64,000 nucleotides of DNA. Source: Protonemura montana (lineage: Eukaryota > Arthropoda > Insecta > Plecoptera > Nemouridae). Where the stretch lies: assembly GCA_947568835.1 (NCBI GenBank), contig CANOQG010000007.1:3658001-3722000 (forward strand), read 5' to 3'. This document shows positions 1 through 63,924 of the stretch, in pieces. The translations under genes were made by a program, and so were the position numbers. The notes beneath the pieces are model-generated. The model was not told where the DNA came from and searched no databases. It saw only the letters and a program-made list of their open reading frames with translations. Numbering within the stretch: position 1 is the stretch's first letter; every line of letters starts with the position of its first letter.

Positions 1-912
1 TGGCAGGACATGGGGCAGGACATGTGGCAGGACATGGGGCAGGACATGGGACATGGGGCTGGACAGGGGAAGGACATGGAGCAGGACATGGGGCAGGACA
101 TGGGGCAGGACATGGGGCAGGACATGGGACAGGACATAGGGAAGGACATGGGGCAGGACATGGGGCAGGACATGGGACATGGGGCAAGACATGGGGCAGG
201 ACATGGAGCAGGACATGGGGCAGGACATGGGGCAGGACATAGGGCAGGACATGGGGCAGGACATGGGACAGGACATATGGCAGGACATGGGGCAGGACAT
301 GTGGCAGGACATGGGGCAGGACATGGGACATGGGGCTGGACAGGGGAAGGACATGGAGCAGGACATGGGGCAGGACATGGGGCAGGACATGGGGCAGGAC
401 ATGGGACAGGACATAGGGAAGGACATGGGGCAGGACATGGGGCAGGACATGGGGCAGGACATGGGACATGGGGCAAGACATGGGGCAGGACATGGGGCAG
501 AACATGGGGCAGGACATGGGGCAGGACACGGGGCAGGACATGGGGCAGGACATGGGGCAGGAAATAGGACAGGACAAGGGGCAGGACATGAGGCAGGACA
601 TGGGACATGGGGCAGGACATGGGGCAGGACATGGGGCATGACATGGGGCAGGACATGGGACAGGACATGGGGCAGGACATGGGGCAGGACATGGGACATG
701 GGGCAGGACATGGGGCAGGACATGGAGCAGGACATGGGACAGGACATAGGGCAGGACATGGGGCAGGACATAGGGCAGGACATGGGGCAGGACATGGGGC
801 AGGACATGGGGCAGGACATAGGGCAGGACATGGGGCAGGACATGAGGCAGGACATGGGACAGGAAATGGGGCAGGACATGGGGCAGGACATGGGACAGGA
901 CATAGGGCAGGA
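1..912 (+). repeat. Partial Y1-type unit, cut by the window start
   Basis: This is the tail of a Y1 unit ending at the CTAG landmark at 913. It holds both copies of the 277-bp internal repeat, marked by ATGGGGCTGGAC followed by AGGGGAAGGAC; the diagnostic T lies at 60 and 337. The sequence begins in mid-monomer, so the array continues upstream. Confidence 0.85.
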
Positions 913-2543
913 CTAGGGGCAGGACATGGGGCAGGACATGGGGCAGGACATGGGACAGGACATGGGGCAGGACATGGGGCAGGACATGGGGCAGGACATG
1001 GGGCAGGAAATGGGGCAGGACATGGGACATGGGGCAGGACATGGAGCAGGACATGGAGAAGGACAAGGGGCAGGACATGGGGCAGGACATAGGGCAGGAC
1101 ATGGGGCAGGACATGGGGCAGGACATGGGGCAGGACATGGGACAGGACATGGGGCAGGACATAGGGCAGGACATTGGACAGGACATGGGGCAAAACATGG
1201 GGCAGGACATGGGACAGGACATGGGACAGGACATAGGGCAGGACATGGGGCAGGACATGGGGCAGGACATGGGACATGAGGCAGGACAGGGGGAGGACAT
1301 GGAGCGGGACATGGGGCAGGACATGGGGCAGGACATGGAGCAGGATATGGGTCAGGACATGGGGCAGGACATGGGACAAGACATAGGGCAGGACATGGGG
1401 CAGGACATGGGGCAGGACATGGGGCAGGACATGGGACATGGGGCAGGACAGGGGGAGGACATGGAGCAGGACATGGGGCAGGACATGGGGCAGGACATGG
1501 GACAGGACATAGGGAAGGACATGGGGCAGGACATGGGGCAGGACATGGGGCAGGACATGGGGCAGGACATGGGGCAGGACATGGGGCAGGAAATGGGACA
1601 GGACAAAGGGCAGGACATGGGGCAGGACATGGGACATGGGGCAGGACATGGGGCAGGACATGGGGCATGACATGGGGCAGGACATGGGACAGGACATGGG
1701 GCAGGACATGGGGCAGGACATGGGGCAGGACATGGGGCAGGACATGGGGCAGGACATAGGGCAGGACATTGGACAGGACATGGGGCAAAACATGGGGCAG
1801 GACATGGGACAGGACATGGGACAGGACATAGGGCAGGACATGGGGCAGGACATGGGGCAGGACATGGGACATGAGGCAGGACAGGGGGAGGACATGGAGC
1901 GGGACATGGGGCAGGACATGGGGCAGGACATGGAGCAGGATATGGGGCAGGAAATGGGGCAGGACATGGGACAGGACATAGGGCAGGACATGGGGCAGGC
2001 CATGAGGCAGGACATGGGGCAGGACATAAGACATAGGGCAGGACAGGGGGAGGACATGGAGCAGGACATGGGGCATTACATGGGGCAGGACATAAGACAG
2101 GACATAGGGCAGGACATGGGGCAGGACATGGGGCAGGACATGGGGCAGGACATGGGACATGGGGCAAGACATGGGGCAGGACATGAGGCAGGACATGGGG
2201 CAGGACATGGGGCAGGACATGGGGCAGGACATGGGGTAGGACATGGGGCAGGAAATGGGACAGGACAAGGGGCAGGACATGGGGCAGGACATGGGACATG
2301 GGGCAGGACATGGGGCAGGACATGGGACATGGGGCAGGACATGGGGCAGGACATGGAGCAGGACATGGGACAGGACATAGGGCAGGACATGGGGCAGGAC
2401 ATAGGGCAGGACATGGGGCAGGACATGGGGCAGGACATGGGGCAGGACATAGGGCAGGACATGGGGCAGGACATGAGGCAGGACATGGGATAGGACATGG
2501 GGCAGGACATGGGGCAGGACATGGGACAGGACATAGGGCAGGA
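913..2543 (+). repeat. X unit, 1,631 bp, with an internal rearrangement
   Basis: The unit starts at the CTAG landmark and carries the X marker ATGGAGAAGGAC. A stretch at about 1,155-1,353 recurs at about 1,750-1,948 (offset 595). It includes ATTGGACAGGAC, ATGGGGCAAAAC and the block with ATGGAGCGGGAC. This duplication explains why the unit is longer than a standard X. ATGGGTCAGGAC near 1,347 appears private to it. Confidence 0.8.
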
Positions 2544-3936
2544 CTAGGGGGCAGGACATGGGGCAGGACATGGGGCAGGACATGGGACAGGACATGGGGC
2601 AGGACATGGGGCAGGACATGTGGCAGGACATGGGGCAGGACATGGGGCAGGACATGGGGCAGGAAATGGGGCAGGACATGGGACATGGGGCAGGACATGG
2701 AGCAGGACATGGGGCAGGACAAGGGGCAGGACATGGGGCAGGACATAGGGCAGGACATGGGGCAGGACATGGGGCAGGACATGGGGCAGGACATGGGACA
2801 TGGGGCAAGACATGGGGCAGGACATAGGGCAGGACATGGGGCAGGACATGGGGCAGGACATGGGACAAGACATAGGGCAGGACATGGGGCATAACATGGG
2901 GCAGGACATGGGGCAGAACATGGGACATGGGGCAGGACAGGGGGAGGACATGGAGCAGGACATGGGGCAGGACATGGGGCAGGACATGGGACAGGAAATA
3001 GGGCAGGACATAGGGCAGGACATGGGGCAGGACATGGGACAGGACATATGGCAGGACATGGGGCAGGACATGTGGCAGGACATGGGGCAGGACATGGGAC
3101 ATGGGGCTGGACAGGGGAAGGACATGGAGCAGGACATGGGGCAGGACATGGGGCAGGACATGGGGCAGGACATGGGACAGGACATAGGGAAGGACATGGG
3201 GCAGGACATGGGGCAGGACATGGGACATGGGGCAAGACATGGGGCAGGACATGGAGCAGGACATGGGGCAGGACATGGGGCAGGACATAGGGCAGGACAT
3301 GGGGCAGGACATGGGACAGGACATATGGCAGGACATGGGGCAGGACATGTGGCAGGACATGGGGCAGGACATGGGACATGGGGCTGGACAGGGGAAGGAC
3401 ATGGAGCAGGACATGGGGCAGGACATGGGGCAGGACATGGGGCAGGACATGGGACAGGACATAGGGAAGGACAAGGGGCAGGACATGGGGCAGGACATGG
3501 GGCAGGACATGGGACATGGGGCAAGACATGGGGCAGGACATGGGGCAGAACATGGGGCAGGACATGGGGCAGGACACGGGGCAGGACATGGGGCAGGACA
3601 TGGGGCAGGAAATAGGACAGGACAAGGGGCAGGACATGAGGCAGGACATGGGACATGGGGCAGGACATGGGGCAGGACATGGGGCATGACATGGGGCAGG
3701 ACATGGGACAGGACATGGGGCAGGACATGGGGCAGGACATGGGACATGGGGCAGGACATGGGGCAGGACATGGAGCAGGACATGGGACAGGACATAGGGC
3801 AGGACATGGGGCAGGACATAGGGCAGGACATGGGGCAGGACATGGGGCAGGACATGGGGCAGGACATGAGGCAGGACATGGGACAGGACATGGGGCAGGA
3901 CATGGGGCAGGACATGGGACAGGACATAGGGCAGGA
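2544..3936 (+). repeat. Y1 unit, 1,393 bp
   Basis: The landmark monomer here has one extra G (TAG followed by five Gs in total), as also at 9914 and 57633. The ATGTGGCAGGAC marker follows, and the 277-bp internal pair is present (T at 3108 and 3385). It is two monomers (24 bp) shorter than the related unit at 9914, the difference falling near 3,860. Confidence 0.85.
3108..3385 (+). repeat. 277-bp internal duplication of Y1 units (representative)
   Basis: A marker pair, ATGGGGCTGGAC followed by AGGGGAAGGAC, recurs exactly 277 bp apart. The feature runs from marker to marker. Other pairs by marker T: 60/337, 7597/7874, 10478/10755, 13070/13347, 19326/19603, 21555/21832, 24147/24424, 30404/30681, 41818/42095, 48858/49135, 55017/55294, 58197/58474, 59962/60239. 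Single markers occur at 40262, 47302 and 53461 inside the 2,724-bp compound units. Confidence 0.88.
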
Positions 3937-5388
3937 CTAGGGGCAGGACATGGGGCAGGACATGGGGCAGGACATGGGACAGGACATGGGGCAGGACATG
4001 GGGCAGGACATGGGGCAGGACATGGGGCAGGAAATGGGGCAGGACATGGGACATGGGGCAGGACATGGAGCAGGACATGGAGAAGGACAAGGGGCAGGAC
4101 ATGGGGCAGGACATAGGGCAGGACATGGGGCAGGACATGGGGCAGGACATGGGGCATGACATGGGACATGGGGCAAGACATGGGGCAGGACATAGGGCAG
4201 GACATGGGGCAGGACATGGGGCAGGACATGGGACAAGACATAGGGCAGGACATGGGGCAGGACATGGGGCAGGACATGGGGCAGGACATGGGACATGGGG
4301 CAGGACAGGGGGAGGACATGGAGCAGGACATGGGGCAGGACATGGGGCAGGACATGGGACAGGACATAGGGAAGGACATGGGGCAGGACATGGGGCAGGA
4401 CATGGGGCAGGACATGGGGCAGGACATGGGGCAGGACATGGGGCAGGAAATGGGACAGGACAAAGGGCAGGACATGGGGCAGGACATGGGACATGGGGCA
4501 GGACATGGGGCAGGACATGGGGCATGACATGGGGCAGGACATGGGACAGGACATGGGGCAGGACATGGGGCAGGACATGGGGCAGGACATGGGGCAGGAC
4601 ATGAGGCAGGACATTGGACAGGACATGGGGCAAAACATGGGGCAGGACATGGGACAGGACATGGGACAGGACATGGGGCAGGACATGGGGCAGGACATGG
4701 GGCAGGACATGGGACATAAGGCAGGACAGGGGGAGGACATGGAGCGGGACATGGGGCAGGACATGGGGCAGGACATGGAGCAGGATATGGGGCAGGAAAT
4801 GGGGCAGGACATGGGACAGGACATAGGGCAGGACATGGGGCAGGCCATGAGGCAGGACATGGGGCAGGACATAAGACATAGGGCAGGACAGGGGGAGGAC
4901 ATGGAGCAGGACATGGGGCATTACATGGGGCAAGACATAAGACAGGACATAGGGCAGGACATGGGGCAGGACATGGGGCAGGACATGGGGCAGGACATGG
5001 GACATGGGGCAAGACATGGGGCAGGACATGAGGCAGGACATGGGGCAGGACATGGGGCAGGACATGGGGCAGGACATGGGGTAGGACATGGGGCAGGAAA
5101 TGGGACAGGACAAGGGGCAGGACATGGGGCAGGACATGGGACATGGGGCAGGACATGGGGCAGGACATGGGACATGGGGCAGGACATGGGGCAGGACATG
5201 GAGCAGGACATGGTACAGGACATAGGGCAGGACATGGGGCAGGACATAGGGCAGGACATGGGGCAGGACATGGGGCAGGACATGGGGCAGGACATAGGGC
5301 AGGACATGGGGCAGGACATGAGGCAGGACATGGGACAGGACATGGGGCAGGACATGGGGCAGGACATGGGACAGGACATAGGGCAGGA
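3937..5388 (+). repeat. X unit, 1,452 bp (standard length)
   Basis: This is a standard X unit with ATGGAGAAGGAC at about 4,077. I counted nine 7-bp truncated monomers in it, including one in the form ATAAGAC near 4,870. It pairs with 13923-15374 at offset 9,986. ATGGTACAGGAC near 5,211 is private to this copy. Confidence 0.88.
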
Positions 5389-7033
5389 CTAGGGGCAGGA
5401 CATGGGGCAGGACATGGGGCAGGACATGGGACAGGACATGGGGCAGGACATGGGGCAGGACATGTGGCAGGACATGGGGCAGGACATGGGGCAGGACATG
5501 GGGCAGGAAATGGGGCAGGACATGGGACATGGGGCAGGACATGGAGCAGGACATGGGGCAGGACAAGGGGCAGGACATGGGGCAGGACATAGGGCAGGAC
5601 ATGGGGCAGGACATGGGGCAGGACATGGGGCAGGACATGGGACATGGGGCAAGACATGGGGCAGGACATAGGGCAGGACATGGGGCAGGACATGGGGCAG
5701 GACATGGGACAAGACATAGGGCAGGACATGGGGCAGGACATGGGGCAGGACATGGGGCAGGACATGGGACATGGGGCAGGACAGGGGGAGGACATGGAGC
5801 AGGACATGGGGCAGGACATGGGGCAGGACATGGGACAGGACATAGGGAAGGACATGGGGCAGGACATGGGGCAGGACATGGGGCAGGACATGGGACATGG
5901 GGCAAGACATGGGGCAGGACATGGGGCAGGACATAGGGCAGGACATGGGGCAGGACATGGGGCAGGAAATGGGACAGGACAAAGGGCAGGACATGGGGCA
6001 GGACATGGGGCAGGACATGGGGCAGGACATAGGGCAGGACATGGGGCAGGACATGGGGCAGGACATGGAGCAGGACATGGGACATGACATGGGACAGGAC
6101 ATGGGGCAGGACATGGGGCAGGACATGGGGCAGGACATGGGGCAGGACATGGGGCAGGACATAGGGCAGGACATGGGGTAGGACATGAGGCAGGACATGG
6201 GACAGGACATGGGGCAGGACATGGGGCAGGACATGGGACAGGACATAGGGCAGGACATGGGGCAGGACATGGGGCAAAACATGGGGCAGGACATGGGACA
6301 GGACATGGGGCAGGACATGGGGCAGGACATGGGGCAGGACATGGGGCAGGACATGGGGCAGGACATGGGGCAGGACATGAGGCAGGACATGGGACATGGG
6401 GCAGGACATGGGGCAGGACATGGAGCAGGACATGGGACATGACATGGGACAGGACATGGGACAGGACATAGGGCAGGACATGGGGCAGGCCATGAGGCAG
6501 GACATGGGGCAGGACATAAGACATAGGGCAGGACAGGGGGAGGACATGGAGCAGGACATGGGGCATTACATGGGGCAGGACATAAGACAGGACATAGGGC
6601 AGGACATGGGGCAGGACATGGGGCAGGACATGGGGCAGGACATGGGACATGGGGCAAGACATGGGGCAGGACATGAGGCAGGACATGGGGCAGGACATGG
6701 GGCAGGACATGGGGCAGGACATGGGGTAGGACATGGGGCAGGAAATGGGACAGGACAAGGGGCAGGACATGGGGCAGGACATGGGACATGGGGCAGGACA
6801 TGGGGCAGGACATGGGACATGGGGCAGGACATGGGGCAGGACATGGAGCAGGACATGGGACAGGACATAGGGCAGGACATGGGGCAGGACATAGGGCAGG
6901 ACATGGGGCAGGACATGGGGCAGGACATGGGGCAGGACATAGGGCAGGACATGGGGCAGGACATGAGGCAGGACATGGGATAGGACATGGGGCAGGACAT
7001 GGGGCAGGACATGGGACAGGACATAGGGCAGGA
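5389..7033 (+). repeat. Y2/X hybrid unit, 1,645 bp
   Basis: It opens as Y (ATGTGGCAGGAC at 5,462), has no 277-bp pair, and from about 6,470 runs into the terminal part of an X unit (ATGGGGCAGGCC, ATAAGAC, ATGGGGCATTAC). The next unit is again Y, as expected if the landmark between Y2 and X was lost at a recombination junction. Confidence 0.78.
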
Positions 7034-8449
7034 CTAGGGGCAGGACATGGGGCAGGACATGGGGCAGGACATGGGACAGGACATGGGGCAGGACATGGGG
7101 CAGGACATGTGGCAGGACATGGGGCAGGACATGGGGCAGGACATGGGGCAGGAAATGGGGCAGGACATGGGACATGGGGCAGGACATGGAGCAGGACATG
7201 GGGCAGGACAAGGGGCAGGACATGGGGCAGGACATAGGGCAGGACATGGGGCAGGACATGGGGCAGGACATGGGGCAGGACATGGGACATGGGGCAAGAC
7301 ATGGGGCAGGACATAGGGCAGGACATGGGGCAGGACATGGGGCAGGACATGGGACAAGACATAGGGCAGGACATGGGGCAGGACATGGGGCAGGACATGG
7401 GGCAGAACATGGGACATGGGGCAGGACAGGGGGAGGACATGGAGCAGGACATGGGGCAGGACATGGGGCAGGACATGGGACAGGAAATAGGGCAGGACAT
7501 AGGGCAGGACATGGGGCAGGACATGGGACAGGACATATGGCAGGACATGGGGCAGGACATGTGGCAGGACATGGGGCAGGACATGGGACATGGGGCTGGA
7601 CAGGGGAAGGACATGGAGCAGGACATGGGGCAGGACATGGGGCAGGACATGGGGCAGGACATGGGACAGGACATAGGGAAGGACATGGGGCAGGACATGG
7701 GGCAGGACATGGGACATGGGGCAAGACATGGGGCAGGACATGGAGCAGGACATGGGGCAGGACATGGGGCAGGACATAGGGCAGGACATGGGGCAGGACA
7801 TGGGACAGGACATATGGCAGGACATGGGGCAGGACATGTGGCAGGACATGGGGCAGGACATGGGACATGGGGCTGGACAGGGGAAGGACATGGAGCAGGA
7901 CATGGGGCAGGACATGGGGCAGGACATGGGGCAGGACATGGGACAGGACATAGGGAAGGACATGGGGCAGGACATGGGGCAGGACATGGGGCAGGACATG
8001 GGACATGGGGCAAGACATGGGGCAGGACATGGGGCAGAACATGGGGCAGGACATGGGGCAGGACACGGGGCAGGACATGGGGCAGGACATGGGGCAGGAA
8101 ATAGGACAGGACAAGGGGCAGGACATGAGGCAGGACATGGGACATGGGGCAGGACATGGGGCAGGACATGGGGCATGACATGGGGCAGGACATGGGACAG
8201 GACATGGGGCAGGACATGGGGCAGGACATGGGACATGGGGCAGGACATGGGGCAGGACATGGAGCAGGACATGGGACAGGACATAGGGCAGGACATGGGG
8301 CAGGACATAGGGCAGGACATGGGGCAGGACATGGGGCAGGACATGGGGCAGGACATAGGGCAGGACATGGGGCAGGACATGAGGCAGGACATGGGACAGG
8401 ACATGGGGCAGGACATGGGGCAGGACATGGGACAGGACATAGGGCAGGA
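7034..8449 (+). repeat. Y1 unit, 1,416 bp
   Basis: The Y marker follows the landmark, and the 277-bp internal pair is intact (T at 7597 and 7874). An X unit follows. Confidence 0.85.
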
Positions 8450-9913
8450 CTAGGGGCAGGACATGGGGCAGGACATGGGGCAGGACATGGGACAGGACAT
8501 GGGGCAGGACATGGGGCAGGACATGGGGCAGGACATGGGGCAGGAAATGGGGCAGGACATGGGACATGGGGCAGGACATGGAGCAGGACATGGAGAAGGA
8601 CAAGGGGCAGGACATGGGGCAGGACATAGGGCAGGACATGGGGCAGGACATGGGGCAGGACATGGGGCAGGACATGGGACATGGGGCAAGACATGGGGCA
8701 GGACATAGGGCAGGACATGGGGCAGGACATGGGGCAGGACATGGGACAAGACATAGGGCAGGACATGGGGCAGGACATGGGGCAGGACATGGGGCAGGAC
8801 ATGGGACATGGGGCAGGACAGGGGGAGGACATGGAGCAGGACATGGGGCAGGACATGGGGCAGGACATGGGACAGGACATAGGGAAGGACATGGGGCAGG
8901 ACATGGGGCAGGACATGGGGCAGGACATGGGGCAGGACATGGGGCAGGACATGGGGCAGGAAATGGGACAGGACAAAGGGCAGGACATGGGGCAGGACAT
9001 GGGACATGGGGCAGGACATGGGGCAGGACATGGGGCATGACATGGGGCAGGACATGGGACAGGACATGGGGCAGGACATGGGGCAGGACATGGGGCAGGA
9101 CATGGGGCAGGACATGGGGCAGGACATAGGGCAGGACATTGGACAGGACATGGGGCAAAACATGGGGCAGGACATGGGACAGGACATGGGACAGGACATA
9201 GGGCAGGACATGGGGCAGGACATGGGGCAGGACATGGGACATGAGGCAGGACAGGGGGAGGACATGGAGCGGGACATGGGGCAGGACATGGGGCAGGACA
9301 TGGAGCAGGATATGGGGCAGGAAATGGGGCAGGACATGGGACAGGACATAGGGCAGGACATGGGGCAGGCCATGAGGCAGGACATGGGGCAGGACATAAG
9401 ACATAGGGCAGGACAGGGGGAGGACATGGAGCAGGACATGGGGCATTACATGGGGCAGGACATAAGACAGGACATAGGGCAGGACATGGGGCAGGACATG
9501 GGGCAGGACATGGGGCAGGACATGGGACATGGGGCAAGACATGGGGCAGGACATGAGGCAGGACATGGGGCAGGACATGGGGCAGGACATGGGGCAGGAC
9601 ATGGGGTAGGACATGGGGCAGGAAATGGGACAGGACAAGGGGCAGGACATGGGGCAGGACATGGGACATGGGGCAGGACATGGGGCAGGACATGGGACAT
9701 GGGGCAGGACATGGGGCAGGACATGGAGCAGGACATGGGACAGGACATAGGGCAGGACATGGGGCAGGACATAGGGCAGGACATGGGGCAGGACATGGGG
9801 CAGGACATGGGGCAGGACATAGGGCAGGACATGGGGCAGGACATGAGGCAGGACATGGGATAGGACATGGGGCAGGACATGGGGCAGGACATGGGACAGG
9901 ACATAGGGCAGGA
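8450..9913 (+). repeat. X unit, 1,464 bp
   Basis: This X unit matches 913-2543 at offset 7,537 in its first part and 7,370 in its last part. It lacks the rearranged stretch of that unit. It is one monomer longer than the standard 1,452 bp. Confidence 0.85.
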
Positions 9914-12594
9914 CTAGGGGGCAGGACATGGGGCAGGACATGGGGCAGGACATGGGACAGGACATGGGGCAGGACATGGGGCAGGACATGTGGCAGGACA
10001 TGGGGCAGGACATGGGGCAGGACATGGGGCAGGAAATGGGGCAGGACATGGGACATGGGGCAGGACATGGAGCAGGACATGGGGCAGGACAAGGGGCAGG
10101 ACATGGGGCAGGACATAGGGCAGGACATGGGGCAGGACATGGGGCAGGACATGGGGCAGGACATGGGACATGGGGCAAGACATGGGGCAGGACATAGGGC
10201 AGGACATGGGGCAGGACATGGGGCAGGACATGGGACAAGACATAGGGCAGGACATGGGGCATAACATGGGGCAGGACATGGGGCAGAACATGGGACATGG
10301 GGCAGGACAGGGGGAGGACATGGAGCAGGACATGGGGCAGGACATGGGGCAGGACATGGGACAGGAAATAGGGCAGGACATAGGGCAGGACATGGGGCAG
10401 GACATGGGACAGGACATATGGCAGGACATGGGGCAGGACATGTGGCAGGACATGGGGCAGGACATGGGACATGGGGCTGGACAGGGGAAGGACATGGAGC
10501 AGGACATGGGGCAGGACATGGGGCAGGACATGGGGCAGGACATGGGACAGGACATAGGGAAGGACATGGGGCAGGACATGGGGCAGGACATGGGACATGG
10601 GGCAAGACATGGGGCAGGACATGGAGCAGGACATGGGGCAGGACATGGGGCAGGACATAGGGCAGGACATGGGGCAGGACATGGGACAGGACATATGGCA
10701 GGACATGGGGCAGGACATGTGGCAGGACATGGGGCAGGACATGGGACATGGGGCTGGACAGGGGAAGGACATGGAGCAGGACATGGGGCAGGACATGGGG
10801 CAGGACATGGGGCAGGACATGGGACAGGACATAGGGAAGGACAAGGGGCAGGACATGGGGCAGGACATGGGGCAGGACATGGGACATGGGGCAAGACATG
10901 GGGCAGGACATGGGGCAGAACATGGGGCAGGACATGGGGCAGGACACGGGGCAGGACATGGGGCAGGACATGGGGCAGGAAATAGGACAGGACAAGGGGC
11001 AGGACATGAGGCAGGACATGGGACATGGGGCAGGACATGGGGCAGGACATGGGGCATGACATGGGGCAGGACATGGGACAGGACATGGGGCAGGACATGG
11101 GGCAGGACATGGGACATGGGGCAGGACATGGGGCAGGACATGGAGCAGGACATGGGACAGGACATAGGGCAGGACATGGGGCAGGACATAGGGCAGGACA
11201 TGGGGCAGGACATGGGGCAGGACATGGGGCAGGACAAAGGGCAGGACATGGGGCAGGACATGAGGCAGGACATGGGACAGGACATGGGGCAGGACATGGG
11301 GCAGGACATGGGACAGGACATAGGGCAGGACTAGGGGCAGGACATGGGGCAGGACATGGGGCAGGACATGGGACAGGACATGGGGCAGGACATGGGGCAG
11401 GACATGGGGCAGGACATGGGGCAGGAAATGGGGCAGGACATGGGACATGGGGCAGGACATGGAGCAGGACATGGAGAAGGACAAGGGGCAGGACATGGGG
11501 CAGGACATAGGGCAGGACATGGGGCAGGACATGGGGCAGGACATGGGGCATGACATGGGACATGGGGCAAGACATGGGGCAGGACATAGGGCAGGACATG
11601 GGGCAGGACATGGGGCAGGACATGGGACAAGACATAGGGCAGGACATGGGGCAGGACATGGGGCAGGACATGGGGCAGGACATGGGACATGGGGCAGGAC
11701 AGGGGGAGGACATGGAGCAGGACATGGGGCAGGACATGGGGCAGGACATGGGACAGGACATAGGGAAGGACATGGGGCAGGACATGGGGCAGGACATGGG
11801 GCAGGACATGGGGCAGGACATGGGGCAGGACATGGGGCAGGAAATGGGACAGGACAAAGGGCAGGACATGGGGCAGGACATGGGACATGGGGCAGGACAT
11901 GGGGCAGGACATGGGGCATGACATGGGGCAGGACATGGGACAGGACATGGGGCAGGACATGGGGCAGGACATGGGGCAGGACATGGGGCAGGACATGAGG
12001 CAGGACATTGGACAGGACATGGGGCAAAACATGGGGCAGGACATGGGACAGGACATGGGACAGGACATGGGGCAGGACATGGGGCAGGACATGGGGCAGG
12101 ACATGGGACATAAGGCAGGACAGGGGGAGGACATGGAGCGGGACATGGGGCAGGACATGGGGCAGGACATGGAGCAGGATATGGGGCAGGAAATGGGGCA
12201 GGACATGGGACAGGACATAGGGCAGGACATGGGGCAGGCCATGAGGCAGGACATGGGGCAGGACATAAGACATAGGGCAGGACAGGGGGAGGACATGGAG
12301 CAGGACATGGGGCATTACATGGGGCAGGACATAAGACAGGACATAGGGCAGGACATGGGGCAGGACATGGGGCAGGACATGGGGCAGGACATGGGACATG
12401 GGGCAAGACATGGGGCAGGACATGAGGCAGGACATGGGGCAGGACATGGGGCAGGACATGGGGCAGGACATGGGGTAGGACATGGGGCAGGAAATGGGAC
12501 AGGACAAGGGGCAGGACATGGGGCAGGACATGGGACATGGGGCAGGACATGGGGCAGGACATGGGACATGGGGCAGGACATGGGGCAGGACATG
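8723..12594 (+). repeat. Older duplicated segment, right copy (about 3.87 kb)
   Basis: Counterpart of 1,353-5,200. Its right end coincides with the switch inside the X/Y1 hybrid at about 12,594, after which the sequence instead follows about 2,632-6,340 (offsets 9,962 then 9,986). Confidence 0.75.
9914..11330 (+). repeat. Y1 unit, 1,417 bp
   Basis: The landmark has the extra G. The 277-bp pair is present (T at 10478 and 10755). The first copy of the 11-kb duplication begins only a few bases into this unit. Confidence 0.85.
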
Positions 12595-13922
12595 GGGCAG
12601 GACATGGGGCAGGACATGGGGCAGGAAATGGGGCAGGACATGGGACATGGGGCAGGACATGGAGCAGGACATGGGGCAGGACAAGGGGCAGGACATGGGG
12701 CAGGACATAGGGCAGGACATGGGGCAGGACATGGGGCAGGACATGGGGCAGGACATGGGACATGGGGCAAGACATGGGGCAGGACATAGGGCAGGACATG
12801 GGGCAGGACATGGGGCAGGACATGGGACAAGACATAGGGCAGGACATGGGGCATAACATGGGGCAGGACATGGGGCAGAACATGGGACATGGGGCAGGAC
12901 AGGGGGAGGACATGGAGCAGGACATGGGGCAGGACATGGGGCAGGACATGGGACAGGAAATAGGGCAGGACATAGGGCAGGACATGGGGCAGGACATGGG
13001 ACAGGACATATGGCAGGACATGGGGCAGGACATGTGGCAGGACATGGGGCAGGACATGGGACATGGGGCTGGACAGGGGAAGGACATGGAGCAGGACATG
13101 GGGCAGGACATGGGGCAGGACATGGGGCAGGACATGGGACAGGACATAGGGAAGGACATGGGGCAGGACATGGGGCAGGACATGGGACATGGGGCAAGAC
13201 ATGGGGCAGGACATGGAGCAGGACATGGGGCAGGACATGGGGCAGGACATAGGGCAGGACATGGGGCAGGACATGGGACAGGACATATGGCAGGACATGG
13301 GGCAGGACATGTGGCAGGACATGGGGCAGGACATGGGACATGGGGCTGGACAGGGGAAGGACATGGAGCAGGACATGGGGCAGGACATGGGGCAGGACAT
13401 GGGGCAGGACATGGGACAGGACATAGGGAAGGACAAGGGGCAGGACATGGGGCAGGACATGGGGCAGGACATGGGACATGGGGCAAGACATGGGGCAGGA
13501 CATGGGGCAGAACATGGGGCAGGACATGGGGCAGGACACGGGGCAGGACATGGGGCAGGACATGGGGCAGGAAATAGGACAGGACAAGGGGCAGGACATG
13601 AGGCAGGACATGGGACATGGGGCAGGACATGGGGCAGGACATGGGGCATGACATGGGGCAGGACATGGGACAGGACATGGGGCAGGACATGGGGCAGGAC
13701 ATGGGACATGGGGCAGGACATGGGGCAGGACATGGAGCAGGACATGGGACAGGACATAGGGCAGGACATGGGGCAGGACATAGGGCAGGACATGGGGCAG
13801 GACATGGGGCAGGACATGGGGCAGGACAAAGGGCAGGACATGGGGCAGGACATGAGGCAGGACATGGGACAGGACATGGGGCAGGACATGGGGCAGGACA
13901 TGGGACAGGACATAGGGCAGGA
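11331..13922 (+). repeat. X/Y1 hybrid unit, 2,592 bp (landmark lost)
   Basis: It starts as X, then near 12,594 switches into Y1 sequence with the 277-bp pair (T at 13070 and 13347) without an intervening CTAG landmark. The next unit is X, so the X-Y order is kept. The same hybrid recurs at 22408-24999. Confidence 0.82.
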
Positions 13923-51729: not shown

Positions 51730-54453
51730 CTAGGGGCAGGACATGGGGCAGGACATGGGGCAGGACATGGGACAGGACATGGGGCAGGACATGGGGCAGG
51801 ACATGTGGCAGGACATGGGGCAGGACATGGGGCAGGACATGGGGCAGGAAATGGGGCAGGACATGGGACATGGGGCAGGACATGGAGCAGGACATGGGGC
51901 AGGACAAGGGGCAGGACATGGGGCAGGACATAGGGCAGGACATGGGGCAGGACATGGGGCAGGACATGGGGCAGGACATGGGACATGGGGCAAGACATGG
52001 GGCAGGACATAGGGCAGGACATGGGGCAGGACATGGGGCAGGACATGGGACAAGACATAGGGCAGGACATGGGGCAGGACATGGGGCAGGACATGGGGCA
52101 GGACATGGGACATGGGGCAGGACAGGGGGAGGACATGGAGCAGGACATGGGGCAGGACATGGGGCAGGACATGGGACAGGACATAGGAAAGATCATGGGG
52201 CAGGACATGGGGCAGGACATGGGGCAGGACATGGGACATGGGGCAAGACATGGGGCAGGACATGGGGCAGGACATAGGGCAGGACATGGGGCAGGACATG
52301 GGGCAGGAAATGGGACAGGACAAAGGGCAGGACATGGGGCAGGACATGGGGCAGGACATGGGGCAGGACATAGGGCAGGACATGGGGCAGGACATGGGGC
52401 AGGACATGGAGCAGGACATGGGACATGACATGGGACAGGACATGGGGCAGGACATGGGGCAGGACATGGGGCAGGACATGGGGCAGGACATGAGGCAGGA
52501 CATAGGGCAGGACATGGGGTAGGACATGAGGCAGGACATGGGACAGGACATGGGGCAGGACATGGGGCAGGACATGGGACAGGACATAGGGCAGGACATG
52601 GGGCAGGACATGGGGCAAAACATGGGGCAGGACATGGGACAGGACATGGGGCAGGACATGGGGCAGGACATGGGGCAGGACATGGGGCAGGACATGGGGC
52701 AGGACATGGGGCAGGACATGAGGCAGGACATGGGACATGGGGCAGGACATGGGGCAGGACATGGAGCAGGACATGGGACATGACATGGGACAGGACATGG
52801 GACAGGACATAGGGCAGGAAATGGGGCAGGACATGGGGCAGGACATACGGCAGGACATGGGGCAGGACATGGGGCAGGACATGGGTCAGGACATGGGGCA
52901 GGACATGAGGCAGGACTTGGGGCAGGACATGGGGCAGGACATGGGGCAGGACATGGGACAGGACATGGGGCAGGACATGGGGCAGGACATGGGGCAGGAC
53001 ATGGGGCAGGACATGGGGCAGGACATGGGGCATGACATGGGACATGGGGCAGGACATGGGGCAGGACATGGAGCAGGACATGGGGCAGGACATGGGGCAG
53101 GACATAGGGCAGGACATGGGGCAGGACATGGGGCAGGACATGGAGCAGGACATGGGACAGGACATGGGACAGGACATAGGGCAGGACATGGGGCAGGACA
53201 TGGGGCAGGACATAGGGCAGGACATGGGGCAGGACATGGGGCAGGACATGGGGCAGGACATGGGGCAGGACATGGGGCAGGACATGAGGCAGGACATGGG
53301 ACATGGGGCAAGACATGGGGCAGGACATGGAGCAGGACATGGGGCAGGACATGGGGCAGGACATAGGGCAGGACATGGGGCAGGACATGGGACAGGACAT
53401 ATGGCAGGACATGGGGCAGGACATGTGGCAGGACATGGGGCAGGACATGGGACATGGGGCTGGACAGGGGAAGGACATGGAGCAGGACATGGGGCAGGAC
53501 ATGGGGCAGGACATGGGGCAGGACATGGGACAGGACATAGGGAAGGACATGGGGCAGGACATGGGGCAGGACATGGGGCAGGACATGGGACATGGGGCAA
53601 GACATGGGGCAGGACATGGGGCAGAACATGGGGCAGGACATGGGGCAGGACACGGGGCAGGACATGGGGCAGGACATGGGGCAGGAAATAGGACAGGACA
53701 AGGGGCAGGACATGAGGCAGGACATGGGACATGGGGCAGGACATGGGGCAGGACATGGGGCATGACATGGGGCAGGACATGGGACAGGACATGGGGCAGG
53801 ACATGGGGCAGGACATGGGACATGGGGCAGGACATGGGGCAGGACATGGAGCAGGACATGGGACAGGACATAGGGCAGGACATGGGGCAGGACATAGGGC
53901 AGGACATGGGGCAGGACATGGGGCAGGACATGGGGCAGGACATAGGGCAGGACATGGGGCAGGACATGAGGCAGGACATGGGACAGGACATGGGGCAGGA
54001 CATGGGGCAGGACATGGGACAGGACATAGGGCAGGACATGGGGCAGGACATGGGGCAGGACATGGGACATGGGGCAAGACATGGGGCAGGACATGAGGCA
54101 GGACATGGGGCAGGACATGGGGCAGGACATGGGGCAGGACATGGGGTAGGACATGGGGCAGGAAATGGGACAGGACAAGGGGCAGGACATGGGGCAGGAC
54201 ATGGGACATGGGGCAGGACATGGGGCAGGACATGGGACATGGGGCAGGACATGGGGCAGGACATGGAGCAGGACATGGGACAGGACATAGGGCAGGACAT
54301 GGGGCAGGACATAGGGCAGGACATGGGGCAGGACATGGGGCAGGACATGGGGCAGGACATAGGGCAGGACATGGGGCAGGACATGAGGCAGGACATGGGA
54401 TAGGACATGGGGCAGGACATGGGGCAGGACATGGGACAGGACATAGGGCAGGA
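51730..54453 (+). repeat. Compound Y2/Y1/X unit, 2,724 bp
   Basis: Third copy of the compound unit, with a single GGCTGG marker (T at 53461). A private GATCAT (for GACAT context) lies near 52,191. Confidence 0.85.
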
Positions 54454-55334
54454 CTAGGGGCAGGACATGGGGCAGGACATGGGGCAGGACATGGGACAGG
54501 ACATGGGGCAGGACATGGGGCAGGACATGTGGCAGGACATGGGGCAGGACATGGGGCAGGACATGGGGCAGGAAATGGGGCAGGACATGGGACATGGGGC
54601 AGGACATGGAGCAGGACATGGGGCAGGACAAGGGGCAGGACATGGGGCAGGACATAGGGCAGGACATGGGGCAGGACATGGGGCAGGACATGGGGCAGGA
54701 CATGGGACATGGGGCAAGACATGGGGCAGGACATAGGGCAGGACATGGGGCAGGACATGGGGCAGGACATGGGACAAGACATAGGGCAGGACATGGGGCA
54801 GGACATGGGGCAGGACATGGGGCAGAACATGGGACATGGGGCAGGACAGGGGGAGGACATGGAGCAGGACATGGGGCAGGACATGGGGCAGGACATGGGA
54901 CAGGAAATAGGGCAGGACATAGGGCAGGACATGGGGCAGGACATGGGACAGGACATATGGCAGGACATGGGGCAGGACATGTGGCAGGACATGGGGCAGG
55001 ACATGGGACATGGGGCTGGACAGGGGAAGGACATGGAGCAGGACATGGGGCAGGACATGGGGCAGGACATGGGGCAGGACATGGGACAGGACATAGGGAA
55101 GGACATGGGGCAGGACATGGGGCAGGACATGGGACATGGGGCAAGACATGGGGCAGGACATGGAGCAGGACATTGGGCAGGACATGGGGCAGGACATAGG
55201 GCAGGACATGGGGCAGGACATGGGACAGGACATATGGCAGGACATGGGGCAGGACATGTGGCAGGACATGGGGCAGGACATGGGACATGGGGCTGGACAG
55301 GGGAAGGACATGGAGCAGGACATGGGGCAGGACA

Positions 55335-56345
55335 TGGGGCAGGACATGGGGCAGGACATGGGACAGGACATAGGGAAGGACATGGGGCAGGACATGGGGC
55401 AGGACATGGGGCAGGACATGGGACATGGGGCAAGACATGGGGCAGGACATGGGGCAGAACATGGGGCAGGACATGGGGCAGGACATGGGGCAGGACATGG
55501 GGCAGGACATGGGACATGGGGCAGGACAGGGGGAGGACATGGAGCAGGACATGGGGCAGGACATGGGGCAGGACATGGGACAGGACATAGGGAAGGACAT
55601 GGGGCAGGACATGGGGCAGGACATGGGGCAGGACATGGGGCAGGACATGGGGCAGGACATGGGGCAGGAAATGGGACAGGACAAGGGGCAGGACATGGGG
55701 CAGGACATGGGACATGGGGCAGGACATGGGGCAGGACATGGGGCATGACATGGGGCAGGACATGGGACAGGACATGGGGCAGGACATGGGGCAGGACATG
55801 GGGCAGGACATGGGGCAGGACATGGGGCAGGACATAGGGCAGGACATTGGACAGGACATGGGGCAAAACATGGGGCAGGACATGGGACAGGACATGGGAC
55901 AGGACATAGGGCAGGACATGGGGCAGGACATGGGGCAGGACATGGGACATGAGGCAGGACAGGGGGAGGACATGGAGCGGGACATGGGGCAGGACATGGG
56001 GCAGGACATGGAGCAGGATATGGGGCAGGAAATGGGGCAGGACATGGGACAGGACATAGGGCAGGACATGGGGCAGGCCATGAGGCAGGACATGGGGCAG
56101 GACATAAGACATAGGGCAGGACAGGGGGAGGACATGGAGCAGGACATGGGGCATTACATGGGGCAGGACATAAGACAGGACATAGGGCAGGACATGGGGC
56201 AGGACATGGGGCAGGACATGGGGCAGGACATGGGACATGGGGCAAGACATGGGGCAGGACATGAGGCAGGACATGGGGCAGGACATGGGGCAGGACATGG
56301 GGCAGGACATGGGGTAGGACATGGGGCAGGAAATGGGACAGGACA
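55335..56345 (+). repeat. 1,011-bp duplication, copy 1
   Basis: Runs from near the ATAGGGAAGGAC monomer of a Y1 unit into X-terminal sequence. It is followed directly by a second copy; boundaries are uncertain by about 30 bp. Confidence 0.83.
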
Positions 56346-57356
56346 AGGGGCAGGACATGGGGCAGGACATGGGACAGGACATAGGGAAGGACATGGGGCA
56401 GGACATGGGGCAGGACATGGGGCAGGACATGGGACATGGGGCAAGACATGGGGCAGGACATGGGGCAGAACATGGGGCAGGACATGGGGCAGGACATGGG
56501 GCAGGACATGGGGCAGGACATGGGACATGGGGCAGGACAGGGGGAGGACATGGAGCAGGACATGGGGCAGGACATGGGGCAGGACATGGGACAGGACATA
56601 GGGAAGGACATGGGGCAGGACATGGGGCAGGACATGGGGCAGGACATGGGGCAGGACATGGGGCAGGACATGGGGCAGGAAATGGGACAGGACAAGGGGC
56701 AGGACATGGGGCAGGACATGGGACATGGGGCAGGACATGGGGCAGGACATGGGGCATGACATGGGGCAGGACATGGGACAGGACATGGGGCAGGACATGG
56801 GGCAGGACATGGGGCAGGACATGGGGCAGGACATGGGGCAGGACATAGGGCAGGACATTGGACAGGACATGGGGCAAAACATGGGGCAGGACATGGGACA
56901 GGACATGGGACAGGACATAGGGCAGGACATGGGGCAGGACATGGGGCAGGACATGGGACATGAGGCAGGACAGGGGGAGGACATGGAGCGGGAAATGGGG
57001 CAGGACATGGGGCAGGACATGGAGCAGGATATGGGGCAGGAAATGGGGCAGGACATGGGACAGGACATAGGGCAGGACATGGGGCAGGCCATGAGGCAGG
57101 ACATGGGGCAGGACATAAGACATAGGGCAGGACAGGGGGAGGACATGGAGCAGGACATGGGGCATTACATGGGGCAGGACATAAGACAGGACATAGGGCA
57201 GGACATGGGGCAGGACATGGGGCAGGACATGTGGCAGGACATGGGACATGGGGCAAGACATGGGGCAGGACATGAGGCAGGACATGGGGCAGGACATGGG
57301 GCAGGACATGGGGCAGGACATGGGGTAGGACATGGGGCAGGAAATGGGACAGGACA
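56346..57356 (+). repeat. 1,011-bp duplication, copy 2
   Basis: Tandem copy of the preceding segment. Private changes are an A in the ATGGAGCGGGAC monomer near 56,994 (GCGGGAAATG) and ATGTGGCAGGAC near 57,230. Confidence 0.83.
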
Positions 57357-57632
57357 AGGGGCAGGACATGGGGCAGGACATGGGACATGGGGCAGGACAT
57401 GGGGCAGGACATGGGACATGGGGCAGGACATGGGGCAGGACATGGAGCAGGACATGGGACAGGACATAGGGCAGGACATGGGGCAGGACATAGGGCAGGA
57501 CATGGGGCAGGACATGGGGCAGGACATGGGGCAGGACATAGGGCAGGACATGGGGCAGGACATGAGGCAGGACATGGGATAGGACATGGGGCAGGACATG
57601 GGGCAGGACATGGGACAGGACATAGGGCAGGA

Positions 57633-59049
57633 CTAGGGGGCAGGACATGGGGCAGGACATGGGGCAGGACATGGGACAGGACATGGGGCAGGACATGGGG
57701 CAGGACATGTGGCAGGACATGGGGCAGGACATGGGGCAGGACATGGGGCAGGAAATGGGGCAGGACATGGGACATGGGGCAGGACATGGAGCAGGACATG
57801 GGGCAGGACAAGGGGCAGGACATGGGGCAGGACATAGGGCAGGACATGGGGCAGGACATGGGGCAGGACATGGGGCAGGACATGGGACATGGGGCAAGAC
57901 ATGGGGCAGGACATAGGGCAGGACATGGGGCAGGACATGGGGCAGGACATGGGACAAGACATAGGGCAGGACATGGGGCAGGACATGGGGCAGGACATGG
58001 GGCAGAACATGGGACATGGGGCAGGACAGGGGGAGGACATGGAGCAGGACATGGGGCAGGACATGGGGCAGGACATGGGACAGGAAATAGGGCAGGACAT
58101 AGGGCAGGACATGGGGCAGGACATGGGACAGGACATATGGCAGGACATGGGGCAGGACATGTGGCAGGACATGGGGCAGGACATGGGACATGGGGCTGGA
58201 CAGGGGAAGGACATGGAGCAGGACATGGGGCAGGACATGGGGCAGGACATGGGGCAGGACATGGGACAGGACATAGGGAAGGACATGGGGCAGGACATGG
58301 GGCAGGACATGGGACATGGGGCAAGACATGGGTCAGGACATGGAGCAGGACATGGGGCAGGACATGGGGCAGGACATAGGGCAGGACATGGGGCAGGACA
58401 TGGGACAGGACATATGGCAGGACATGGGGCAGGACATGTGGCAGGACATGGGGCAGGACATGGGACATGGGGCTGGACAGGGGAAGGACATGGAGCAGGA
58501 CATGGGGCAGGACATGGGGCAGGACATGGGGCAGGACATGGGACAGGACATAGGGAAGGACATGGGGCAGGACATGGGGCAGGACATGGGGCAGGACATG
58601 GGACATGGGGCAAGACATGGGGCAGGACATGGGGCAGAACATGGTGCAGGACATGGGGCAGGACACGGGGCAGGACATGGGGCAGGACATGGGGCAGGAA
58701 ATAGGACAGGACAAGGGGCAGGACATGAGGCAGGACATGGGACATGGGGCAGGACATGGGGCAGGACATGGGGCATGACATGGGGCAGGACATGGGACAG
58801 GACATGGGGCAGGACATGGGGCAGGACATGGGACATGGGGCAGGACATGGGGCAGGACATGGAGCAGGACATGGGACAGGACATAGGGCAGGACATGGGG
58901 CAGGACATAGGGCAGGACATGGGGCAGGACATGGGGCAGGACATGGGGCAGGACAAAGGGCAGGACATGGGGCAGGACATGAGGCAGGACATGGGACAGG
59001 ACATGGGGCAGGACATGGGGCAGGACATGGGACAGGACATAGGGCAGGA
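57633..59049 (+). repeat. Y1 unit, 1,417 bp
   Basis: The landmark has the extra G. The 277-bp pair is present (T at 58197 and 58474). ATGGTGCAGGAC at 58,641 is shared only with the copy at 60,406. Confidence 0.86.
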
Positions 59050-59679
59050 CTAGGGGCAGGACATGGGGCAGGACATGGGGCAGGACATGGGACAGGACAT
59101 GGGGCAGGACATGGGGCAGGACATGGGGCAGGACATGGGGCAGGAAATGGGGCAGGACATGGGACATGGGGCAGGACATGGAGCAGGACATGGAGAAGGA
59201 CAAGGGGCAGGACATGGGGCAGGACATAGGGCAGGACATGGGGCAGGACATGGGGCAGGACATGGGGCATGACATGGGACATGGGGCAAGACATGGGGCA
59301 GGACATAGGGCAGGACATGGGGCAGGACATGGGGCAGGACATGGGACAAGACATAGGGCAGGACATGGGGCAGGACATGGGGCAGGACATGGGGCAGGAC
59401 ATGGGACATGGGGCAGGACAGGGGGAGGACATGGAGCAGGACATGGGGCAGGACATGGGGCAGGACATGGGACAGGACATAGGGAAGGACATGGGGCAGG
59501 ACATGGGGCAGGACATGGGGCAGGACATGGGGCAGGACATGGGGCAGGACATGGGGCAGGAAATGGGACAGGACAAAGAGCAGGACATGGGGCAGGACAT
59601 GGGACATGGGGCAGGACATGGGGCAGGACATGGGGCATGACATGGGGCAGGACATGGGACAGGACATGGGGCAGGACAT
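57915..59679 (+). repeat. 1,765-bp duplication, copy 1
   Basis: Covers most of the Y1 unit at 57633 and the first ~630 bp of the next X unit. Copy 2 follows directly; the boundaries are uncertain by about 40 bp. ATGGGTCAGGAC near 58,329 is private to this copy. Confidence 0.83.
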
Positions 59680-60814
59680 GGGGCAGGACATGGGGCAGGA
59701 CATGGGGCAGGACATGGGACAAGACATAGGGCAGGACATGGGGCAGGACATGGGGCAGGACATGGGGCAGAACATGGGACATGGGGCAGGACAGGGGGAG
59801 GACATGGAGCAGGACATGGGGCAGGACATGGGGCAGGACATGGGACAGGAAATAGGGCAGGACATAGGGCAGGACATGGGGCAGGACATGGGACAGGACA
59901 TATGGCAGGACATGGGGCAGGACATGTGGCAGGACATGGGGCAGGACATGGGACATGGGGCTGGACAGGGGAAGGACATGGAGCAGGACATGGGGCAGGA
60001 CATGGGGCAGGACATGGGGCAGGACATGGGACAGGACATAGGGAAGGACATGGGGCAGGACATGGGGCAGGACATGGGACATGGGGCAAGACATGGGGCA
60101 GGACATGGAGCAGGACATGGGGCAGGACATGGGGCAGGACATAGGGCAGGACATGGGGCAGGACATGGGACAGGACATATGGCAGGACATGGGGCAGGAC
60201 ATGTGGCAGGACATGGGGCAGGACATGGGACATGGGGCTGGACAGGGGAAGGACATGGAGCAGGACATGGGGCAGGACATGGGGCAGGACATGGGGCAGG
60301 ACATGGGACAGGACATAGGGAAGGACATGGGGCAGGACATGGGGCAGGACATGGGGCAGGACATGGGACATGGGGCAAGACATGGGGCAGGACATGGGGC
60401 AGAACATGGTGCAGGACATGGGGCAGGACACGGGGCAGGACATGGGGCAGGACATGGGGCAGGAAATAGGACAGGACAAGGGGCAGGACATGAGGCAGGA
60501 CATGGGACATGGGGCAGGACATGGGGCAGGACATGGGGCATGACATGGGGCAGGACATGGGACAGGACATGGGGCAGGACATGGGGCAGGACATGGGACA
60601 TGGGGCAGGACATGGGGCAGGACATGGAGCAGGACATGGGACAGGACATAGGGCAGGACATGGGGCAGGACATAGGGCAGGACATGGGGCAGGACATGGG
60701 GCAGGACATGGGGCAGGACAAAGGGCAGGACATGGGGCAGGACATGAGGCAGGACATGGGACAGGACATGGGGCAGGACATGGGGCAGGACATGGGACAG
60801 GACATAGGGCAGGA
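59050..60814 (+). repeat. X/Y1 hybrid unit, 1,765 bp, at a duplication junction
   Basis: Starts as X and switches at about 59,680-59,719 into Y1 sequence repeating the unit 1,765 bp upstream. The 277-bp pair has its T at 59962 and 60239. Confidence 0.84.
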
Positions 60815-61444
60815 CTAGGGGCAGGACATGGGGCAGGACATGGGGCAGGACATGGGACAGGACATGGGGCAGGACATGGGGCAGGACATGGGGCAGGACA
60901 TGGGGCAGGAAATGGGGCAGGACATGGGACATGGGGCAGGACATGGAGCAGGACATGGAGAAGGACAAGGGGCAGGACATGGGGCAGGACATAGGGCAGG
61001 ACATGGGGCAGGACATGGGGCAGGACATGGGGCATGACATGGGACATGGGGCAAGACATGGGGCAGGACATAGGGCAGGACATGGGGCAGGACATGGGGC
61101 AGGACATGGGACAAGACATAGGGCAGGACATGGGGCAGGACATGGGGCAGGACATGGGGCAGGACATGGGACATGGGGCAGGACAGGGGGAGGACATGGA
61201 GCAGGACATGGGGCAGGACATGGGGCAGGACATGGGACAGGACATAGGGAAGGACATGGGGCAGGACATGGGGCAGGACATGGGGCAGGACATGGGGCAG
61301 GACATGGGGCAGGACATGGGGCAGGAAATGGGACAGGACAAAGGGCAGGACATGGGGCAGGACATGGGACATGGGGCAGGACATGGGGCAGGACATGGGG
61401 CATGACATGGGGCAGGACATGGGACAGGACATGGGGCAGGACAT
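59680..61444 (+). repeat. 1,765-bp duplication, copy 2
   Basis: Tandem copy of the preceding segment, sharing the rare ATGGTGCAGGAC (60,406). A CAAAGAG variant near 59,575 in copy 1 reads CAAAGGG here. Confidence 0.82.
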
Positions 61445-62266
61445 GGGGCAGGACATGGGGCAGGACATGGGGCAGGACATGAGGCAGGACATTGGACAGG
61501 ACATGGGGCAAAACATGGGGCAGGACATGGGACAGGACATGGGACAGGACATGGGGCAGGACATGGGGCAGGACATGGGGCAGGACATGGGACATGAGGC
61601 AGGACAGGGGGAGGACATGGAGCGGGACATGGGGCAGGACATGGGGCAGGACATGGAGCAGGATATGGGGCAGGAAATGGGGCAGGACATGGGACAGGAC
61701 ATAGGGCAGGACATGGGGCAGGCCATGAGGCAGGACATGGGGCAGGACATAAGACATAGGGCAGGACAGGGGGAGGACATGGAGCAGGACATGGGGCATT
61801 ACATGGGGCAGGACATAAGACAGGACATAGGGCAGGACATGGGGCAGGACATGGGGCAGGACATGGGGCAGGACATGGGACATGGGGCAAGACATGGGGC
61901 AGGACATGAGGCAGGACATGGGGCAGGACATGGGGCAGGACATGGGGCAGGACATGGGGTAGGACATGGGGCAGGAAATGGGACAGGACAAGGGGCAGGA
62001 CATGGGGCAGGACATGGGACATGGGGCAGGACATGGGGCAGGACATGGGACATGGGGCAGGACATGGGGCAGGACATGGAGCAGGACATGGGACAGGACA
62101 TAGGGCAGGACATGGGGCAGGACATAGGGCAGGACATGGGGCAGGACATGGGGCAGGACATGGGGCAGGACATAGGGCAGGACATGGGGCAGGACATGAG
62201 GCAGGACATGGGACAGGACATGGGGCAGGACATGGGGCAGGACATGGGACAGGACATAGGGCAGGA
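60815..62266 (+). repeat. X unit, 1,452 bp
   Basis: Standard X unit aligning to 31257-32708 at offset 29,558. Confidence 0.88.
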
Positions 62267-63924
62267 CTAGGGGCAGGACATGGGGCAGGACATGGGGCAG
62301 GACATGGGACAGGACATGGGGCAGGACATGGGGCAGGACATGTGGCAGGACATGGGGCAGGACATGGGGCAGGACATGGGGCAGGAAATGGGGCAGGACA
62401 TGGGACATGGGGCAGGACATGGAGCAGGACATGGGGCAGGACAAGGGGCAGGACATGGGGCAGGACATAGGGCAGGACATGGGGCAGGACATGGGGCAGG
62501 ACATGGGGCAGGACATGGGACATGGGGCAAGACATGGGGCAGGACATAGGGCAGGACATGGGGCAGGACATGGGGCAGGACATGGGACAAGACATAGGGC
62601 AGGACATGGGGCAGGACATGGGGCAGGACATGGGGCAGGACATGGGACATGGGGCAGGACAGGGGGAGGACATGGAGCAGGACATGGGGCAGGACATGGG
62701 GCAGGACATGGGACAGGACATAGGGAAGGACATGGGGCAGGACATGGGGCAGGACATGGGGCAGGACATGGGACATGGGGCAAGACATGGGGCAGGACAT
62801 GGGGCAGGACATAGGGCAGGACATGGGGCAGGACATGGGGCAGGAAATGGGACAGGACAAAGGGCAGGACATGGGGCAGGACATGGGGCAGGACATGGGG
62901 CAGGACATAGGGCAGGACATGGGGCAGGACATGGGGCAGGACATGGAGCAGGACATGGGACATGACATGGGACAGGACATGGGGCAGGACATGGGGCAGG
63001 ACATGGGGCAGGACATGGGGCAGGACATGGGGCAGGACATAGGGCAGGACATGGGGTAGGACATGAGGCAGGACATGGGACAGGACATGGGGCAGGACAT
63101 GGGGCAGGACATGGGACAGGACATAGGGCAGGACATGGGGCAGGACATGGGGCAAAACATGGGGCAGGACATGGGACAGGACATGGGGCAGGACATGGGG
63201 CAGGACATGGGGCAGGACATAGGGAAGGACATGGGGCAGGACATGGGGCAGGACATGGGGCAGGACATGGGACATGGGGCAAGACATGGGGCAGGACATG
63301 GGGCAGAACATGGGGCAGGACATGGGGCAGGACATGGGACAGGACATAGGGAAGGACATGGGGCAGGACATGAGGCAGGACATGGGGCAGGACATGGGAC
63401 ATGGGGCAAGACATGGGGCAGGACATGGGGCAGAACATGGGGCAGGACATGGGGCAGGACACGGGGCAGGACATGGGGCAGGACATGGGGCAGGAAATAG
63501 GACAGGACAAGGGGCAGGACATGAGGCAGGACATGGGACATGGGGCAGGACATGGGGCAGGACATGGGGCATGACATGGGGCAGGACATGGGACAGGACA
63601 TGGGGCAGGACATGGGGCAGGACATGGGACATGGGGCAGGACATGGGGCAGGACATGGAGCAGGACATGGGACAGGACATGGGGCAGGACATGGGGCAGG
63701 ACATGGGACATGGGGCAGGACATGGGGCAGGACATGGAGCAGGACATGGGACAGGACATAGGGCAGGACATGGGGCAGGACATAGGGCAGGACATGGGGC
63801 AGGACATGGGGCAGGACATGGGGCAGGACATAGGGCAGGACATGGGGCAGGACATGAGGCAGGACATGGGACAGGACATGGGGCAGGACATGGGGCAGGA
63901 CATGGGACAGGACATAGGGCAGGA
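62267..63924 (+). repeat. Y2 unit, 1,658 bp
   Basis: Standard Y2 unit. With the preceding X unit it forms another exact 3,110-bp dimer, far from the 11-kb duplication. Confidence 0.88.

Follow-up and report, generated by a model that had tools for sequence, protein, structure and literature searches.

The question raised by the 64,000-bp stretch of contig CANOQG010000007.1 analysed here (positions 3,658,001 to 3,722,000; hereafter the window) is how an array of one short tandem monomer is ordered at the scale of kilobases, and by which events that order was produced. From the analyses described below, we consider that the locus is probably a non-coding eukaryotic satellite with nested higher-order repeats (HORs), remodelled by duplication and deletion at short homologies. 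Its organisation is a hierarchy in which a 12-bp monomer forms cassettes marked by a 7-mer, followed upwards by units of two classes, X and Y, of ~1.3-1.7 kb, by XY dimers of ~2.2-3.1 kb, and by recent duplications of 1-11 kb. The locus itself is likely heterochromatin in a eukaryote, and its sequence would have no product.

The entire window is a single head-to-tail array of the monomer GGGGCAGGACAT according to Tandem Repeats Finder (TRF), and TRF, monomer tiling, and Rfam and tRNA searches found no other sequence class within bases 2-64000. Tiling of bases 12-63999, with permitted monomer lengths of 4-18, resolved 5,501 monomers of 66 types and left nothing but 12-mers (4,937), 7-mers (384), 11-mers (142) and 13-mers (38) of inherited types, with zero fragments. 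About half of the monomers (2,720 of 5,501) are the plain consensus, singleton types account for seven of them, and changes are seen at all 12 positions. Composition is steady across the window, with a GC content of 0.62-0.63 and a GC skew of 0.48-0.49.

Above the monomer, the order of variants extends far beyond what shuffled monomers produce, as the initial annotation, made from the sequence alone, had anticipated. The longest exact repeat spans 619 monomers (7,201 bp) at a lag of 11,077 bp, compared with 11-14 monomers in five monomer shuffles, 12-13 in five first-order Markov surrogates and 16-21 in five second-order ones. In addition, large units are more alike than monomers, with X copies agreeing at 99.5-100% and the array at lag 12 at 86.1%. 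Autocorrelation peaks had been predicted at 12, about 277, about 1,452, 3,110 and about 6,100 bp. Local maxima are indeed found at 12 and 1452, while lag 3110 takes second place in its neighbourhood, lag 277 gives a genuine but minor signal (rank 9 within +-120; exact matches of 100 bp or longer cover 4.1% of positions), and the signal at ~6.1 kb reflects one 6,159-bp tandem duplication. Among the 22 lags examined, the autocorrelation is highest within +-120 at 12, 1452, 2592, 3146, 6159, 7040, 11077 and 17334; the predicted list lacked 11,077 bp, the strongest of the lags beyond 5 kb.

The units are bounded by CTAG, a two-base alteration of the CATG that stands at a monomer boundary. Its 37 sites, the first at 913 and the last at 63925, bound 36 units as annotated, including the eight units of about 1,452 bp (seven spacings of exactly 1,452 bp and one of 1,453 bp). 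Written as monomer letters, the units have heads of two kinds, X or Y. The X unit comprises 125 monomers in 1,452 bp; Y bodies are several (1,308-1,417, 1,513, 1,645-1,658 and 1,694 bp), and composites of 1,940, 2,724 and 3,179 bp open with a Y head. We read some long units (8, 13, 14 and 34) as X and Y fused without a CTAG, and units 32 and 34 contain an extra headless X and Y body that is invisible to a count of heads. Within classes the units are nearly uniform: the eight X units are mutually 99.5-100% alike (28 pairs) and the four 1,658-bp Y units 99.9-100% (6 pairs).

The proposed alternation of X and Y is strong but not complete, with 7 of 38 neighbouring heads alike against a shuffle mean of 18.8 (P about 3e-5 in 100,000 shuffles), a count based on 39 typed heads (17 of class X and 22 of class Y; 36 at CTAG and three inside long units that have lost one) whose patterns were picked after inspecting the monomer strings. 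It is near perfect to about 38.6 kb, with one exception, and then decays, with six. A 3,110-bp spacing of XY dimers recurs at 13923, 25000, 31257 and 60815, as had been reported, but the four copies are not all exact: those at 13923 and 25000 are identical, the other two each differ from that pair at 4 of 3,110 bases, and these two differ from one another at 2 bases. At 267 monomers (125+142), the dimer bears out the earlier figure of about 260, although it is not the top level of the hierarchy. The common descent of X and Y from an older unit of ~1.45 kb, by duplication and divergence, is well supported by the order of their variants, because 41 of the 64 variant monomers of X stand in the same order in the 1,658-bp Y, compared with 23.1 after shuffling (standard deviation 1.6, maximum 26; 30 shuffles). 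Four other Y forms have 33-52 variants in X order, all above their own shuffle maxima of 25-27 (30 shuffles each). X and the 1,658-bp Y are 96.9% alike in their aligned part, with 216 bases unaligned.

The uppermost level is formed by tandem duplications (Table 1). A scan of lags 150-31,999 without indels, in which matches were broken at more than 3 mismatches per 100 bp and kept below 2% mismatch, returned five rows that represent four distinct events, of 1,011, 1,765, 2,592 (twice) and 6,159 bp, with 2, 2, 2 and 4 mismatches. The largest event, of 11,077 bp, had gone unnoticed in the initial annotation and lies outside the scan owing to a 1-bp indel; it was found by the exact-repeat and joint analyses, and its copies of 11,103-11,104 bp show no substitution and one inserted base near 28196. 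The 2,592-bp duplication is present again at 21069-26264, carried by the 11-kb duplication; since it is found in both 11-kb copies, it is the older of the two. The order of events is thus the 2,592-bp duplication, then the 11,077-bp duplication, then the inserted base in the second copy, a base that the other X units do not have.

Table 1. Coordinates of the satellite array, its unit landmarks, the XY dimers and the complete tandem duplications in the window.
Feature	Position	Strand	Basis and remarks
12-bp satellite array, consensus GGGGCAGGACAT	2..64000	+	TRF; monomer tiling 12-63999
37 CTAG landmarks, 36 units	913..63928	+	Site positions; per-unit monomer strings
XY dimer, 3,110 bp (X 1,452 + Y 1,658)	13923..17032	+	Identical copy 25000-28109
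XY dimer, 3,110 bp	31257..34366	+	4 substitutions vs 13923 copy
XY dimer, 3,110 bp	60815..63924	+	4 substitutions vs 13923 copy
11,077-bp tandem duplication	9918..32098	+	9918-21020 = 20995-32098; joint homology 26 bp at 20995-21020
2,592-bp tandem duplication	9992..15187	+	Joint homology 12 bp at 12584-12595; 2 mismatches
6,159-bp tandem duplication	43311..55663	+	Joint homology 35 bp at 49470-49504; 4 mismatches
1,011-bp tandem duplication, within unit 32	55336..57387	+	Joint homology 30 bp at 56347-56376; 2 mismatches
1,765-bp tandem duplication	57916..61481	+	Joint homology 36 bp at 59681-59716; 2 mismatches

The joints of these duplications bear on how the array was remodelled. Joint homology, taken as the excess of match length over lag at a tandem duplication, amounts to 12, 26, 30, 35 and 36 bp in the five distinct complete events, far short of the 1.4 kb that in-register exchange would offer. 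Much longer homology was in fact available, given that any two of the eight X copies agree at 99.5-100% over their 1,452 bp. All joints are in 12-mer phase, as tiling left inherited types without fragments. Four of the five connect different CTAG offsets (816/4, 1253/78, 631/283 and 1175/748) and the fifth lies inside unit 32; at the 11-kb joint, an X unit body leads directly into a Y unit head. In a null of base pairs in any phase the median is 1 and the 95th percentile 12, with 5.3% reaching 12; for monomer pairs in phase the corresponding values are 14 and 41. Nearly every variant monomer is common to the copies, so the position of each clean duplication joint is fixed to the 12-36 bp of its own homology.

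These features suggest a process in which the array would grow, shrink and stay uniform through repeated duplication and deletion, with joints falling in stretches that match over some 12-36 bp, mostly plain consensus monomer. Because such matching stretches occur everywhere, joints would keep the 12-mer phase but need not keep the unit register, and joints out of register would account for units of mixed length, for the fusions of X with Y and for missing CTAGs. They may have originated by out-of-register template switching, by break-induced replication or by short-homology unequal exchange; HOR reviews, as excerpted from PMC8997354, name both unequal exchange and break-induced replication with short homology, under debate. 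As a tentative proposal, for which we would claim less than even chances, duplications of up to 11 kb would be set off by one to three monomers (12-36 bp), in phase and out of register despite kilobase homology nearby, such that the consensus monomer serves template switching as a universal landing site and HORs arise from short-homology replication restart, not from long-homology unequal crossing-over. The classical alternative, Smith's model of sister-chromatid unequal crossing-over in long homology in unit register, would make short-homology joints a minority. It predicts both hierarchy and homogeneity (excerpts from PMC8122249 and PMC8997354), the likeness of the X copies fits it, and in-register unequal exchange would be invisible in this array. 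We nevertheless regard it as rather unlikely, considering that all five distinct complete tandem duplications found carry just 12-36 bp at the joint and that no complete tandem duplication with longer joint homology emerged from the lag scan, be it at lag 3,110 or elsewhere. Other observations weigh against the short-homology process. A length-weighted null has a median of 26 (5-95%: 8 to 1,245), so that the five joint values need no special preference, because joining in proportion to in-phase match length gives the same. A wider joint screen of 37 contexts, some of them 1-bp indel artefacts and with the largest overlap taken up to a limit of 300 bp, yielded overlaps with a median of 42 bp and a maximum of 266 bp; the argument therefore rests on the complete tandem duplications rather than on this screen. 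Among 28 hand-picked unit triples, 13 gave 12-57 bp, 14 a negative overlap, which means that the chosen parents do not explain the unit, and one same-register control 514. The duplication scan does not bridge indels and misses older events, and in-register exchange between near-identical X or Y copies, which alters length in whole-dimer steps without a joint that could be seen, may be more frequent than the visible joints. Because of this traceless exchange, the scan misses, the wide-screen values and the unfitting triples, we give the short-homology mechanism moderate weight only.

Two further readings concern the sequence itself. Part of the fine structure, above all the substitution-free 11,077-bp duplication, could be an assembly artefact, and the one inserted base that separates copies otherwise alike over 11,103-11,104 bp is a difference of the sort that a base-calling slip produces. 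This is improbable given that X and Y units recur with small differences throughout the window and that the other four duplications carry 2-4 mismatches, for which reasons the hierarchy does not rest on one join. Far less credible still is a coding repeat on the minus strand, for which a mechanical finder of open reading frames (ORFs) would report ORFs of up to 5,290 amino acids. Long ORFs are expected there, because the consensus has no stop in any minus-strand frame, and are a by-product of the monomer. Moreover, the frame is shifted by 384 7-mers and by 108 11-mers unpaired with a 13-mer, the 62 stops of the minus strand fall in all three frames (22, 22 and 18), CTAG occurs in three phases (14, 12 and 11), and no monomer position is free of changes. 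Rfam families at gathering score and tRNAs are absent from the window. Coding, tRNA and structured-RNA readings were accordingly rejected, and non-coding DNA fits, because there are stops in all frames and no RNA genes. Folding of the 120 bases 961-1080 is no better than that of shuffles (z 0.38 for the plus strand as DNA, 0.76 for the minus strand as RNA). On the plus strand there are no strict G-quadruplex motifs (loops 1-7); with loops to 12 there are 1,035, a number that merely restates the monomer.

Among known satellites, the Drosophila dodeca satellite, with a monomer of ~12 bp (11/12-bp consensus), is like this array in monomer length and in forming large arrays; its consensus presumably differs from the monomer found here. 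Alpha satellite differs in its monomer of ~171 bp, some copies of which carry a CENP-B box, compared with the 12-bp period here, and the CENP-B core motif occurs zero times on both strands of the window. Human satellites 2 and 3 consist of CATTC/GGAAT pentamers, which, compared by eye, bear no sequence likeness to GGGGCAGGACAT. The likeness to alpha-satellite HORs lies in blocks of diverged monomers that are copied jointly, with neighbours up to 97-100% alike in excerpts from PMC8122249. D. subobscura has a 12-bp satellite, likened to this array by length alone, as ~12-bp monomers in large arrays, and Drosophila miranda, lowei and pseudoobscura have HORs of 63, 84 and 168 bp on a 21-bp monomer (excerpts from PMC6795482). 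The latter are likewise higher-order repeats on a short monomer, but their units stay below 200 bp, whereas units in this array measure 1.3-1.7 kb and dimers 2.2-3.1 kb.

The earlier view that a HOR of about 260 short monomers is unusual is overstated, as excerpts from PMC4022460 give units of 3.6 kb for human DYZ1 (HSat3A6) and of 1.77 kb for human HSat2 on chromosome 1. Both resemble the present array in combining a kilobase unit with a short monomer. DYZ1 is built on pentanucleotides, to judge from the title of a 1986 study cited in PMC4022460, so that at 5 bp its 3.6-kb unit would hold ~700 monomers by arithmetic, compared with 267 here; it differs from the 12-mer of this array, which is G-rich on one strand and arranged in two alternating unit classes. 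Kilobase HORs on short monomers are thus already established. What sets this array apart is that its joints are unusually readable, which lets the debate between unequal exchange and short-homology break-induced replication be put to counts; otherwise it is an ordinary satellite. Neither the 3,110-bp dimer in phage and plasmid collections nor two perfect monomers in prokaryote genome contigs and viral contigs found a match, although this absence, from collections without eukaryotes, says little. A full-text literature search with monomer pieces (six of 11 letters per strand, all rotations) returned no satellite paper by title among the matches listed.

At the level of cassettes, the 7-mer GGGACAT equals the variant GGGACAGGACAT minus one of its two internal GGACA; tiling found no threefold GGACA in the window, though losses are widespread. 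The 7-mer marks the cassettes: of 125 GGGGCAAGACAT monomers, 124 come after a 7-mer, as do all 108 of the 11-mers that do not bear CTAG. GGGACAT occurs at 365 places in the window, for example at 602-608. A nucleosome-length spacing of the 7-mers was rejected, as the mean is 166 bp but the range extends from 31 to 499 bp.

A block of 4.7 kb is present in triplicate (37638-42329, 44678-49369 and 50837-55528), the later copies each with 4 mismatches to the first; its three copies at lags of 7,040 and 13,199 indicate that it was amplified apart from the 11-kb event. At three CTAG sites (2544, 9914 and 57633) an extra G makes the monomer pair 25 bp instead of 24, and a short Y unit follows each of them. 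Finally, two adjacent bases at 52192-52193 are the sole differences between units 31 and 24 and distinguish unit 31 from the remaining 2,724-bp copies. The CTAG landmark is likewise a two-base change, and the pair at 52192-52193 might reflect a mutation of several bases at once, of the kind that arises in error-prone replication restart.

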